NCBI GenBank assembly: GCA_902168115.1
Contig: CABHPB010000110.1
Span: 1-64,000, forward strand
DNA length: 64,000 nt
Reading direction: 5' to 3'
Source of the DNA: an uncultured Methylopila sp.
GTDB lineage: Bacteria > Pseudomonadota > Alphaproteobacteria > Rhizobiales > Methylopilaceae
The translations under genes and the position numbers were made by a program. Below the pieces are notes generated by a model. That model made no database searches. It worked only from the letters and a program-made list of their open reading frames with translations, and had not been told where the DNA came from. This document shows positions 46,729 through 64,000 of this stretch, piece after piece (positions within the stretch are counted from its first letter, which is position 1; each line of letters starts with the position of its first letter).

Positions 46729-49700
46729 TTACGCCACAGGTCCCGAGGCGATCGCCTCGATGTTGACCAGGAACGCCTTGTATTCCGGCGTCTCGATGTT
46801 CGCGTCGCCCACGAAGGGGGTCAGCGAGTTCGGGTTCATGCCCTTCTTGGCCGCGCCCATGAATCCCCAGTGCTGCGGGATGCCGACGATGTGGGTCGGC
46901 TTGCCGTCGACCATCAGCGGCTTGATGCGCTTGGTGACCACCGCCTTGGCCTTGATCGACCCGCGGTTTGACCAGACGCGCACCCAGCCGCCCTTGGCGA
47001 TGCCCTTTTCCTTCGCGAGCTCTTCCGAGATCTCGACGAAGAATTCAGGCTGCAGCGCCGCGTTGACCCAGACGTGCTTGGTCCACTGGTGGAAGTGCTC
47101 GGTCAGCCGGTAGCTCGTCGCGACGTACGGATACTTCTCGCTGGAGCCGAGCGCCGCGAAGTCGCCCTTGAAGATGCGCGCGGCGGGATTGCCGCGGATC
47201 TTCGGCGCGACCGCGTTTGCGACCGGTGACTCGAAGGGCTCGTAGTGCGTCGGGAACGGTCCGTCCCGCATCATCTTGCGGGTGAAGAACCGCGCGACGC
47301 CCTCCGGGTTCATGATGAACGGGCCGATCGCCTGCTCCGGCTTGAAGGCCGGGCTGTAGTCAGGCACGTCGAGGCCGCTCCACTTCTCGCCGTTCCACCA
47401 GACGAGCTTGCGGGTGTCGTCCCACGGCTTGCCGGCCGGGTCCGACGATGCGCGGTTGTAGAGGATGCGGCGGTTGGCCGGCCACGACCACGCCCACTTG
47501 GGCGCAAGGCCGGCGTCCTCCGGATCGCTCTTGTCGCGACGGGCCATGTTGTTGCCCGCCTCCGTCCAGCAGCCGGCGTAGATCCAGCAGAAGCCCTGCG
47601 TGGAGCCGTCGTCGCGCATCTGCGCGAAGCCGTCGAGCTGCTTGCCCTTGGCCAGGATGACCTTGGTCGCGTCCTTCGGATCGAACACGTCGCCGAGGGC
47701 CGAGCCGTTCATCTCCTTTGCGAGCTCCTGAGGGGTCGGATCCTCGGGATTCGCATAGGGCCAGTTGAGCTTGAGGATCGGGTCTGGGAACGCCCCGCCC
47801 TCGGCCTCGTAGAGCTTCTTCAGCCGGAGCCAGACCTGGGCCATGATCCAGGTGTCGAGCTTGGCCTCTCCGGGCGGCTTCTGTCCCGGATAGTGCCACT
47901 GCAGCCAGCGCCCGGAGTTGACCAGCGAACCCTCGTCCTCGGCGAAGCAGCTCGTCGGCAGCTGGAACACCTCGGTCTGGATGTCCGCCGACTTCACGTC
48001 GTTGAACTCGCCGTGGTTCTCCCAGAAGCGCGACGTCTCCGTGTCGAGCGGATCCATCGTCACGAGGAACTTGAGCTTCGACAGGCCCTCCGTGAGCTTC
48101 GCCCGGTTGGGGAAGGTCATCAGCGGGTTGAAGCCCTGGCAGAAGTAGCCCGACATCTTGCCCTGCGCCATCAGGTCGAAGGCGCGCAGGACGTCGTAGG
48201 TGACGTCGAGCTTGGGCAGCCAGTCGTAGTTCCAGTTGTTCTCCGCCGTCGCCGTCGCGCCCCACATGGACTTGGTGAACGAGACGAAGAACTTCTTGTA
48301 GTTCTGCCAGTAGCTCATCTGGTTCGGCCGCAACGGCTTGAAGCCGCGGGTCGACATGTAGGCGTTGAAGTCCGGCTCCTTCTCCGTCGGCATCGTGAGA
48401 TAGCCGGGGATGAGGTTCGACATCAGGCCGAGGTCGGTGAGCCCCTGGATGTTGGAGTGGCCGCGCAGCGCGTTCATGCCGCCGCCCCGAACGCCGATGT
48501 TGCCCAGCAGCAGCTGGATCATCGCCATGCAGCGGATGTTCTGCGAGCCCTTGGAGTGCTGCGTCCAGCCGAGCGCGTACATCGACGTCATCGTCTTCGT
48601 CGGCGTCGAGCACGTGGCCATCATCTCGGCCACCTTCAGGAACTTGTCCTTCGGCGAGCCGCAGATCTTCTCGACCAGCTCCGGCGTGTAGACCGCGAAG
48701 TGCTTCTTCATCAGCTGGAAGACGCAGTTCGGGTCCTGCAGCGTGTCGTCGACCTTCGCGAAGCCGTCCTCGCCCATCTGGTATTCCCAGTTGGACATGT
48801 CGTAGCCGCGCTTGGCCTCGTCGTAGCCGACGAACAGGCCGTCCGTGAAACCGAACTCCGGTTTCACGAGGAAGCCGACGTTGGTGTAGGACTTGACGTA
48901 CTCGTGCTGGATCTTGTCGTTCGACAAGAGGTAGTTGATCACGCCGCCGAGGAACGCGATGTCGGTTCCGGGCCGGATCGGGCAGTAATAGTCGGCCACC
49001 GACGCCGTGCGCGTGTAGCGCGGGTCGACGACGATCAGCTTGGCGCCGCGGGTCTCCTTGGCCTTGACGACCCATTTGAAGCCGCAGGGATGCGCTTCAG
49101 CGGCGTTGCCGCCCATGACGACGACAAGGTCCGTCGAGGCGATGTCGCCCCAGGAGTTGGTCATCGCGCCGCGACCGAATGTTGGGGCGAGACTCGCCAC
49201 CGTCGGTCCGTGTCAAACGCGCGCCTGGTTGTCGAACACCACCATGCCGGTCGAACGCACGACCTTCCAGGTCAGCGTCGCCGTTTCGTTGGTCGTGGCC
49301 GAGGCCGCGAGGAAGCCCGTGGTCGCCCACCGGTTGACGGTCACGCCGTCCTTGGACTGCGCGACGAAGTTCTTGTCGCGATCGTCCTTCAACAGCCGGG
49401 CGATGCGGTCGAGCGCGACGTCCCACGACACCCGCTCGAACTTGTCCGAGCCGGGCTTGCGATGCATCGGGTACTTGAGGCGCGTGTCCGAATGCACGAA
49501 GTCGAGCAGGGCAGCGCCCTTCGGGCAGAGCGTGCCCCGGTTCACCGGATGGTCCGGGTCGCCCTCGATGTGCATGATCGCCGGCTCGTTGCCGGCCGAA
49601 CCGTCGCCGACGCCGTACATCAGGACGCCGCAGGCAACCGAGCAATACGGGCACGTGTTCCGGGTTTCCGTCGTCTTCGCGAGCTTGAAGGGCCGCACCG

Positions 49701-58958: not shown

Positions 58959-59456
58959 TCATCTCGCGAACCGCGTGTTCAGGCGAGCGACGACCGACGG
59001 AGGCGCGAAGGCGGAAATGTCGCCGCCCATCGCGGCGATTTGCCGGACGAATGTGGCGCTGATCGATCGAACCGCGGCGGATGGCGGCAGAAGCACGGTG
59101 GTGACGTCAGGGGCGAGTTCGGCGTTCATCCCGGCCATCTGCATCTCGTAGTCGAAATCGGCGCCGTCACGCACCCCGCGGATGATGACGGAAGAGCCTG
59201 CGGCGCGGGCCGCGTCGACCACGAGACCGTCGAACGTCGTCGCCTCGAACGCGCCGCCGGACTTCCGGACGACCAGCCCCAGCGTCTCCTCGAGCATCTC
59301 GCGCCGGTCCTCCACGGAGAACAGCGGCGTCTTGCCCGGATGCGTCCCGATCGCGACCACGAGCTTGTCGGCGAGCCGGCAGGCGCGCTCGGCCACCTCG
59401 ATATGTCCGTTGGTCACCGGGTCGAACGAACCGGGATAGAACGCGACGCGCGGCAT
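58959..59456 (-). CDS. coaD: Phosphopantetheine adenylyltransferase CoaD
   Basis: CoaD adenylylates 4'-phosphopantetheine to dephospho-CoA. 165 residues: AFYPGSFDPVTNGHIEVAERA (T/HxGH class), VAIGTHPGKTPLFSVEDR, RGVRDGADFDYEMQMAGMN and the ISATFVRQIAAMGGDI end. The ATG at 59456 matches the family start; the open frame continues 32 codons upstream without similarity. Confidence 0.96.
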   Translation of the reverse strand: MPRVAFYPGSFDPVTNGHIEVAERACRLADKLVVAIGTHPGKTPLFSVEDRREMLEETLGLVVRKSGGAFEATTFDGLVVDAARAAGSSVIIRGVRDGADFDYEMQMAGMNAELAPDVTTVLLPPSAAVRSISATFVRQIAAMGGDISAFAPPSVVARLNTRFAR

Positions 59457-59637
59457 TGACGCCCTCGGGTCAGGGCCGCGCGAAATGCGGCCGGCGGATC
59501 GCTCCGCGGGGAGCGAAGCGCCGTCTCTACCGGCCCCTCCGGCCCGCCGCAAGGCCGTGAACGTCGGATGAACGTCAGCGCCAGATTAGGTTCAGCGCCC
59601 CCGCCTAGGATGCGCGCCAACATCAAGGGAGGTCGCG

Positions 59638-59935: not shown

Positions 59936-59970
59936 AAAAAGCGGCGTCCCGATCATCGGGAGCGCCGCTT
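59936..59970 (-). terminator. Terminator of the tRNA-like RNA
   Basis: On the minus strand, 11 bases after the CCA end, GCGGCGCTCCCGAT pairs with ATCGGGACGCCGC (one base unpaired) and is followed by TTTTTC. It is a strong Rho-independent terminator, showing that the RNA upstream of it is a transcript end. Confidence 0.85.
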
Positions 59971-59980
59971 CTTCGCATCC

Positions 59981-60055
59981 TGGAGGCCCAGCCTGGATTT
60001 GAACCAGGATGTGAGGATGTTCCCATCCCCTGGGTAGCCATTCCCCCACCGGGCC
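59981..60055 (-). ncRNA. tRNA-like RNA lacking an anticodon loop
   Basis: 75 bases fold as a tRNA: acceptor GGCCCGG/CTGGGCC (one G-U), D arm GGG-AATGGCTA-CCC with the usual A14, GG and A21 features, T arm CCTGG-TTCAAAT-CCAGG, discriminator T and encoded CCA. The third arm is a seven-pair stem (positions 26-32 with 37-43) closed by GGAA, a GNRA-type tetraloop. No anticodon or U33 is presented. It lies between gyrA and a strong terminator, so it may be processed from the gyrA transcript or have its own promoter. Confidence 0.7.
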
Positions 60056-60162
60056 GACGCCCAAAATGTGCCATGCGGCCGGGTCGGCGGCAACCGTACC
60101 AGGTTGTTAAGGTTAATGTTTTCGCTCCGAGAGGGCGCCGCGGCCGAACGCGTCGCCTCCCC

Positions 60163-62883
<2,721 letters not shown>

Positions 62884-63314: not shown

Positions 63315-63649
63315 AACATCTCCTAACTCGCCGCTTCGAAAATATCCGACAGTCGGCGCCTTGCGCCTGACAGATATGGGGATTTTGGCCGGATGAGCAA
63401 CCATCCGCGACGATTGCGGCGCCCGTTCGCTTGATTTTCGGCGCGGCCGTCACGTCTGCGCTTCGACTCCAAAGAATTTTTTCCGGCGACCGGAAAAACC
63501 TGAGGCGCCGCGCGCGCCTCGGGGAGACGGCCGACGCGTTGCGGGACTGTGTTCGTCCCGCTAGCTTGAGGCCGGGGTTCGTCGCGACTACCCCGTGAGG
63601 CTGACGCCCAAAGCTCGCGTCCAAACTCCTGAAACGGAGACGGGCGCTT
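63315..63649. other. Divergent region between rpsU and the chromate-transporter gene
   Basis: 335 bases without a gene. It holds a perfect inverted repeat TTTTTCCGG / CCGGAAAAA around CGA (63478-63498) and, four bases on, a second hairpin GAGGCGC / GCGCCTC (63502-63520). They lie between two divergent starts and could be operators, a leader structure or remnants of REP DNA. No promoter is clear enough to call. Confidence 0.45.
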
Positions 63650-64000
63650 ATGCCGTCAGCACAGGTTCCGAACATGGCCGAGACCACGGACGAGGCGGAC
63701 GCCACGGCGGCGGCGCTCGAGCGGCCCACGCTCGGCGCGGCGACGCGCGTCTGGGCGAAGATCGGACTGCTCAGCTTCGGCGGGCCTGCGGGCCAGATCG
63801 CGCTGATGCACAAGGAGCTGGTCGAGGAACGGCGCTGGATCGGCGAGGAGCGGTTCCTGCACGCGCTGAACTACTGCATGCTCCTGCCAGGGCCCGAGGC
63901 GCAGCAGCTCGCGACTTATATCGGCTGGCTGATGCACCGCACGATCGGCGGGCTGATCGCGGGGTTGCTGTTCGTCGTCCCCGGCGCGCTGGTCATGCTG
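63650..64000 (+). CDS. chrA: Chromate transporter (ChrA family), 5' part
   Basis: 117 codons to the window edge. The N-terminal CHR domain is clear: [35 protein letters not shown] and [17 protein letters not shown] match the ChrA signature. ChrA proteins export chromate, or transport sulfate-like anions, at the inner membrane. The ATG at 63650 is used, with GGAG 13 bases upstream; a second ATG eight codons later is possible. The rest lies outside. Confidence 0.93.

Follow-up and report, generated by a model that had tools for sequence, protein, structure and literature searches.

The window analysed here is a stretch of 64,000 nucleotides (nt) from an uncultured Methylopila sp. (assembly GCA_902168115.1, contig CABHPB010000110.1, positions 1 to 64,000). 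Between gyrA and a coaD-like gene it carries a 75-nt element that has the shape of a tRNA and in which a GGAA tetraloop stands in place of the anticodon loop (Table 1). Judged by its sequence, this element can no longer present a normal anticodon, yet it retains the cysteine acceptor end and the conserved T arm. It is very probably a non-decoding RNA with a function, and we set out below the evidence for this, its likely descent from tRNA-Cys and what it may do in the cell.

Table 1. Positions of the element, its parts and the adjoining features in the window
Feature	Position	Strand	Basis
tRNA-shaped RNA, apparently tRNA-Cys-derived, 75 nt, CCA encoded	59981..60055	minus	ARAGORN, fold, homologues
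Acceptor stem, 5' strand GGCCCGG, pairing with 59985-59991	60049..60055	minus	sequence
D arm GGG-GAATGGCTA-CCC, retaining a GG resembling positions 18-19	60032..60046	minus	sequence and family comparison
Central arm, 7-base-pair stem GGGGATG/CATCCTC instead of a normal anticodon arm	60013..60030	minus	alignment
GGAA tetraloop instead of an anticodon loop	60020..60023	minus	ARAGORN; 11/11 distinct Methylopila-genus sequences
T arm CCTGG-TTCAAAT-CCAGG	59992..60008	minus	family comparison
Acceptor stem, 3' strand CTGGGCC	59985..59991	minus	sequence
Discriminator U73, major cysteine identity base	59984	minus	sequence; identity role from the available text of PMC9976931
Encoded CCA	59981..59983	minus	sequence
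GC-rich hairpin and T-run directly 3' of CCA, probable intrinsic terminator	59936..59970	minus	folding of genus loci
TTAACCTTAA, palindrome-like upstream site, probable regulator site	60107..60116	minus	sole TTARSSYTAA in the 64-kilobase window
TTG at -38, possible -35 box	60091..60093	minus	genus comparison, weak
gyrA, upstream neighbour	60163..62883	minus	Pfam PF00521 and PF03989
coaD-like gene, downstream neighbour, start codon uncertain, name from reading	58959..59552	minus	Pfam PF01467

A closed central arm conserved across the genus

An initial annotation, made from the letters alone, had described a tRNA-shaped RNA that is unable to decode normally, with a seven-base-pair central arm closed by GGAA. 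This description is confirmed by ARAGORN, by the fold and by all 11 distinct sequences from the Methylopila genus. The central arm (GGGGATG-GGAA-CATCCTC) measures 18 nt against 17 nt in a normal arm, and on folding a GNRA tetraloop closes its seven pairs. The window element lacks the 7-nt loop in which a GCA anticodon would follow U33, and ARAGORN reports the element as tRNA-???, with 'ggaa' at position 33. The D arm contains AATGGCTA, and in the acceptor arm U73, G2-C71 and C3-G70 are all present. The minimum-energy fold of the minus strand has four arms, the central and T arms as given in Table 1 and the D stem shifted in register. With the Rfam tRNA model RF00005 the element was not reported, either at the gathering threshold or in a relaxed scan of the stretch, and it is absent from the 41 matches to Rfam tRNA in its own genome (E up to 10). 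One copy was found in that genome.

Conservation beyond one strain, which the initial annotation had left to be checked, is evident from a DNA search of 101 genomes, the source genome included: full-length matches at 84-100% identity occur in 13/13 genomes of the Methylopila genus. Three further full-length matches lie outside the genus (78, 74 and 73% identity), and the remaining matches (E up to 1) covered short stretches only and were disregarded. All seven central pairs are standard in each of the 11 distinct genus sequences (77/77 cells; column-shuffled mean 91.6%, maximum 97.4%). The inner pairs interchange between GC, AT, GU and UA, and the loop is invariably GGAA; stem pairs 6 and 7 (CG, TG or TA; and GC) are retained in every one of these sequences, which closes the loop to four bases. 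An earlier alignment of 16 rows (14 distinct, three of these from outside the genus) had 5/7 central pairs altered on both sides, and each of five pairing measures was reached by no more than 1/500 shuffles; one T-stem pair was placed on a gap column in this alignment, with the central arm unaffected. Covariation in the central stem and constancy of GGAA, both anticipated by the annotation, are thus borne out within the genus. Because the stem covaries and the tetraloop is constant across the genus, the element is not the decayed tRNA of one strain. The comparative evidence for a conserved central arm is strong; that from the folding energy of the single sequence is weak, as this energy is unremarkable (z = -1.82; 10/200 shuffles equally good).

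The element also appears to have its own 3' end. When the region was folded, a hairpin followed by a T-run lay 3' of the element in 12/13 genus loci, compared with 43/650 shuffles. The terminator that the initial annotation placed after the CCA is upheld by folding, though a simple terminator scan of the window stretch found none. A count by a narrow rule gave 12/95 against 17/950 shuffled, and folding places the above-chance excess in the genus alone.

Relatives and descent from tRNA-Cys

A pattern scan of a collection of 84,980 species genomes, with both ends fixed and the middle free, gave at least 118 stretches. Rows that were not tRNA-like (chance matches, largely from other phyla) were dropped with the filter GGTTC[AG]AN[TC]CC and, with other loci added, at least 101 loci and at least 77 distinct sequences were obtained, 66 of these from outside the Methylopila genus. 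Some genomes are present twice, through two collections, and counts were therefore made on distinct sequences; they refer to the matches listed. Conservation of the end bases is not counted as evidence, since the pattern fixes them, and the T-loop motif is not independent evidence either, being forced by the filter. Within the T arm, CCTGGTTCRANTCCAGG is found in 72/77 distinct sequences. Named sources include Bradyrhizobium, Rhodopseudomonas, Nitrobacter, Afipia, Tardiphaga, Pseudolabrys, Pseudorhodoplanes, Lutibaculum and Methylopila; a few source labels, such as 'Frankia sp. RB7' and 'Rhizobium sp. Q54', appear to be misassigned. The guess in the initial annotation of a poorly described alphaproteobacterial family was a good one.

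GCA lies at the centre of the central arm in all 66 listed members outside the genus, and nearly all of them have a contracted loop, mostly of 4-6 nt. Read over six bases, the loops are GTGCAA (26), GTGCAT (18), ATGCAT (6), CCGCAA (5), ATGCAA (4) and others (7). Where these six bases are GTGCAT or ATGCAT, the outermost two are able to pair with each other, which gives a UGCA loop. Of the cells in the six flanking pairs, 92.9% are standard (shuffled mean 77.6%, maximum 81.6%). In four of the 66 (CCGCAAA, CAGCAAA) a seven-base loop allows better pairing, with C or A then at position 33. One relative was called tRNA-Pro by ARAGORN. The GG resembling G18G19 is lost in 51/66 listed members and retained in all 11 distinct genus sequences, the window copy included. 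Since GCA is present in every listed member outside the genus, the ordinary state of the family is a tRNA-Cys with its loop shrunk around GCA. The Methylopila genus has gone further than its relatives, with GGAA replacing the GCA-bearing loop.

A stricter pattern matched 31/397 sampled genomes of the order: 13/13 of the Methylopila genus, 14/14 of genus g37, 1/1 of g110, 1/1 of g138 and 2/2 of g66. The other sampled genera of these families (including g2, g3, g31, g68, g107 and g126) were without a match to this pattern; genome G014 (g3) nevertheless carries a variant, found by the 101-genome DNA search. In a class-wide sample a related pattern matched 0/285 genomes outside the order and 1/289 overall, the source genome itself. 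The total for covariance model R1 (274/297 genomes) is uninformative on the spread of the family, because R1 also matches canonical tRNA-Cys. An origin from a phage or plasmid was rejected: the phage and plasmid collections gave no match to the element, and five viral-contig stretches contained no family member. Judged by eye, four of these stretches do not resemble a tRNA, and the fifth (L304) has the normal loop CTGCAAA of an ordinary tRNA-Cys.

Among the tRNAs of its own genome, recovered by ARAGORN from the loci of the 41 tRNA matches, the closest to the element is tRNA-Cys (68% identity against 58% for the next, tails included). The canonical tRNA-Cys (GCA) is a separate gene there (in locus L056). 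The two share U73, G2-C71 and C3-G70, bases that belong to the cysteine identity set in the available text of PMC9976931, as well as the shape of the D arm, the size and the CCA. They differ in that the element has no seven-base anticodon loop, has lost GCA in the Methylopila genus and carries U-A at T-stem pair 51-63 in place of C-G. For cysteinyl-tRNA synthetase (CysRS) one full match was found in each of 32/32 genomes, and the remaining matches were weak and partial. By sequence comparison, the element is a paralogue of tRNA-Cys that appears to have arisen by gene duplication in Hyphomicrobiales.

Extra copies of tRNA-Cys with a normal loop were also seen. In genus g91 (L072-L074) a second tRNA-Cys has a normal GCA loop, the same T stem as the element and no upstream palindrome, in genomes that hold another tRNA-Cys match too; it may resemble the ancestor of the element. 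A further 75-nt second tRNA-Cys (G213:C1:4247461-4247535) has a normal GCA loop and a seemingly longer T stem. The initial annotation had treated homologues with a normal loop as a sign of decay. These second copies and the canonical tRNA-Cys are the only such homologues found, and the covarying stem opposes the reading of decay.

Two known groups were considered and rejected as a home for the element. The selC* tRNA-Cys are likewise tRNA-Cys variants of odd structure, and according to the available text of PMC7609411 they can be charged by a CysRS that lacks the anticodon-binding domain. As described there, they have an 8-base-pair acceptor (8/4 arms), a longer variable arm and an anticodon, and some lineages have an extra CysRS without the anticodon domain; the element is 7/5 with a four-base variable region, and 32/32 genomes have a single full CysRS. 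The tRNA-Sec model RF01852 scores 17.2 bits against the 47 required, and the 7-base-pair acceptor and 4-nt variable region do not correspond to its 8-base-pair acceptor and long arm.

The upstream site and genomic surroundings

Upstream of the element lies a site close to the palindrome GTTARSSYTAAC at a near-fixed distance, mostly starting at -58 and in the genus at -60 to -62. TTA-N4-TAA occurs between -75 and -40 in 64/96 distinct upstream regions of the matches listed, compared with 2/1920 shuffles and 0/31 upstream regions of other tRNAs in the source genome. At six or more of the eight fixed bases the site is found in 81/96 (shuffles about 5%), and at seven or more in 70/96 (0.4%). Upstream of the tRNA-Cys genes of the order, among which are three second copies from g91, the corresponding counts are 4/43 and 1/43. 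The site is present at most listed copies, which stand in differing gene neighbourhoods. Two known motifs were rejected: the CtrA consensus TTAA-N7-TTAA (PMC9437464) was found in 4/95 listed upstream regions and is spaced differently from TTA-N4-TAA, and the CenR motif TGA-N8-TGA, as given in the available text of PMC9275681, also has a different spacing. As for the promoter, a TTG starts at -38 in 9/13 genus loci and at -37 to -39 in 12/13, and a promoter scan of the window stretch gave no sigma-70 match.

In three genomes of the genus TTARSSYTAA occurs 11, 12 and 8 times and a reversed control pattern 5, 12 and 14 times; as these counts are about equal, many single sites may be due to chance. 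Some sites recur beside the same genes, namely MraW/RsmH in 3/3 genomes and, in at least two of the three, genes for flagellin, CarD, an outer-membrane barrel protein, an M23 peptidase and a CpoB-like product (one copy of each was Pfam-scanned, the CpoB-like fragment without a Pfam match). Three g37 genomes hold 2, 2 and 4 strict sites (controls 5, 10 and 19). One of these is followed by an outer-membrane-type gene in 3/3 genomes (one copy Pfam-scanned), and another by a gene read as leucyl aminopeptidase in 3/3, with a divergent TPR gene read as TadD at the latter site in 2/3. Taken together, GTTARSSYTAAC stands beside MraW, flagellin, CarD, outer-membrane, M23 peptidase and TadD-like genes in G000 (the source genome), G010, G012, G051, G205 and G226, and may mark a possible regulon of an alphaproteobacterial regulator.

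In three-kilobase loci of the genus, gyrA is beside the element in 12/13 and coaD in 11/13. Elsewhere the element lies near genes read, from the protein alone, as carA, carB and greA, as lepA, or as a glycosyltransferase. The window also holds a SECIS_3 element (49160-49218, minus strand; 82.7 bits), which points to a selenoprotein mRNA nearby, and a chrB-a RNA motif (63569-63652, plus strand; 48.2 bits against a cut-off of 43.9).

Three other unusual tRNA-like loci were seen in the source genome. At L062 (G000:C141:13559-13698) two tRNA-like genes follow each other, and the first has an arm CCGGG-CCGAAAG-CCCGG with a potential GAAA tetraloop; this locus is probably prophage-borne, since it resembles Rhizobium and Caulobacter phage tRNA arrays (270 phage records match, 17 of them over most of the query). 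At L070 (G000:C13:2799-2915) a tRNA-Leu-like RNA (113-nt Rfam match) has an anticodon arm that is apparently a long hairpin without a normal loop. Its full length matches the source genome only among 16, the other 15 matching tRNA ends only, and no plasmid matches it. L069 (G000:C23:15957-16031) is an extra, low-scoring tRNA-Gly(GCC) with U73 and apparently without an encoded CCA.

Proposed function and alternatives

Since the element is unable to decode, we propose that it supplies cysteine outside the ribosome. A tRNA-Cys gene would have been duplicated in Hyphomicrobiales, and one copy would have become a dedicated non-decoding tRNA-like RNA, transcribed alone and folded and processed like a tRNA. 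The cell's only CysRS would cysteinylate it at least weakly through the acceptor arm, and the cysteine would go to a reaction outside the ribosome; control of the RNA would lie with a regulator that may be tied also to division, surface and motility genes. The presence of a separate canonical tRNA-Cys and a single full CysRS alongside the element favours this proposal, as do the closeness of the element to tRNA-Cys, the GCA of all 66 listed members outside the genus, the occurrence in 13/13 and 14/14 genomes of two genera and the upstream site. We regard a cysteine donor of this kind as a tentative but quite possible reading. Its fuller form, in which the RNA feeds tRNA-dependent transfer of cysteine to a lipid, a cell-wall precursor, a peptide or a cofactor and is switched together with cell-division, pilus, flagellin and outer-membrane genes, is distinctly unlikely as it stands.

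Tertiary and T-stem features offer a parallel. Staphylococcal non-proteinogenic tRNA-Gly keep an anticodon loop, and they resemble the element in being an extra tRNA copy beside a normal isoacceptor. According to the available text of PMC4052509, those of S. aureus have weak EF-Tu pairs and have lost G18G19, and are thought thereby to escape translation for use in the cell wall. The U-A at 51-63 and the GG loss of most listed relatives may parallel these changes. In contrast to the staphylococcal donors, the element relates to another amino acid, its window copy keeps G18G19 and no Fem-like partner is known for it. The pseudo-tRNA tRNA-Other of Bacillus cereus is also a tRNA-like RNA that acts outside translation, and is set apart by its description in the available text of PMC3399842: it carries the anticodon for Trp, belongs to a longer RNA and is iron-regulated.

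Several results weigh against a cysteine donor. GCA is a major determinant, and with its loss cysteine charging in the Methylopila genus may be very weak, which weakens the donor model for that genus. The window copy retains G18G19. No second CysRS was found in 32 genomes, and Lant_dehydr_N, the mark of a PEARL-type partner, was found in 0/32, though the control was silent too and other amino-acid transferase families were not searched. Outside the genus a terminator is not above chance on folding (3/82 against 15/410 shuffled), and the site is missing from 15/96 listed upstream regions, of which two belong to the genus and one is interrupted by masked bases. Neither gyrA nor coaD was found at any listed family locus outside the genus. 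The link to gyrA suggested in the initial annotation thus does not extend beyond Methylopila and, because no neighbour is common to all, a partner, if there is one, would act in trans.

The main alternative, which we consider somewhat unlikely, is that the element stays uncharged and, as a mimic of a tRNA, binds CysRS or a different tRNA-binding protein so as to stabilise, titrate or regulate it. The model for it is mascRNA/menRNA (RF01684), a cloverleaf without a usable anticodon loop and the best Rfam similarity of the element, below the cut-off at 22.1 bits of the 42.5 needed (E 0.026). The available text of PMC9976931 describes mascRNA as nearly a cloverleaf, lacking a conserved anticodon loop and inactive in charging, which stabilises GlnRS. 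The loss of GCA in the Methylopila genus, the loss of GG in 51/66 listed others and the one CysRS per genome would all fit such a mimic. However, mascRNA is mammalian, is cut from a long RNA and has no cysteine identity, and a pure mimic would have no need of the CCA, U73 and acceptor identity pairs that the element retains, or of the GCA kept by all 66 listed members outside the genus. The element could also be a decoy or resistant substitute for tRNA-Cys, set against anticodon-cleaving toxins or phage-stress nucleases; its contracted loop might withstand cleavage with the rest of the tRNA preserved, and the GCA of the members outside the genus would suit this role. This is improbable: no nuclease has been linked to the element (none was searched for), the RNA is in 13/13 and 14/14 genomes of two genera, and neither the phage and plasmid collections nor the viral-contig stretches yielded a relative.

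The remaining explanations concern the origin of the fold. In the genus the element has gyrA on one side, coaD on the other and a terminator behind it, as would befit a small regulatory RNA, or a structure at the 3' end of the gyrA transcript, that kept a tRNA fold; relatives at other places (by carA, carB and greA, or lepA) with the same upstream site make this quite improbable. The 'ggaa' that ARAGORN takes as an anticodon would suit a frameshift suppressor, a tRNA that decodes through a four-base anticodon in a loop of 8 nt, yet stem pairs 6 and 7 hold the loop at four bases in all 11 distinct genus sequences, and listed relatives have short loops around GCA, so that we find a frameshifting tRNA very improbable. 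Duplicates of tRNA genes are common, and a functionless tRNA-Cys duplicate in decay would account for the lost anticodon. Covariation, an invariant tetraloop, the conserved upstream site and the occurrence of the element in every sampled genome of two genera render decay extremely improbable.

No description of the family was found in the open-access literature (most subscription papers and bioRxiv lay outside the coverage), in which pseudo-tRNAs and unusual tRNA-Cys variants were found instead; the word tRNA is absent from the main text of PMC5082802 and PMC4842269, both on Bradyrhizobium transcripts. The tRNA-Cys origin, the UGCA or GUGCAA-type loops of the relatives and the upstream site of its own are new beyond the initial annotation. 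The Rfam model missed the element and ARAGORN assigned no amino acid to it, so that a conserved RNA from a large, much-studied group, which includes nitrogen-fixing symbionts, nitrifiers and methylotrophs, seems to have been nameless so far. If the element is charged, it would point to a cysteine-consuming pathway outside the ribosome, and if it is not, mascRNA would have a counterpart in bacteria. The series from a normal loop through a short, GCA-bearing loop to GGAA also illustrates the stepwise exit of a tRNA from decoding.
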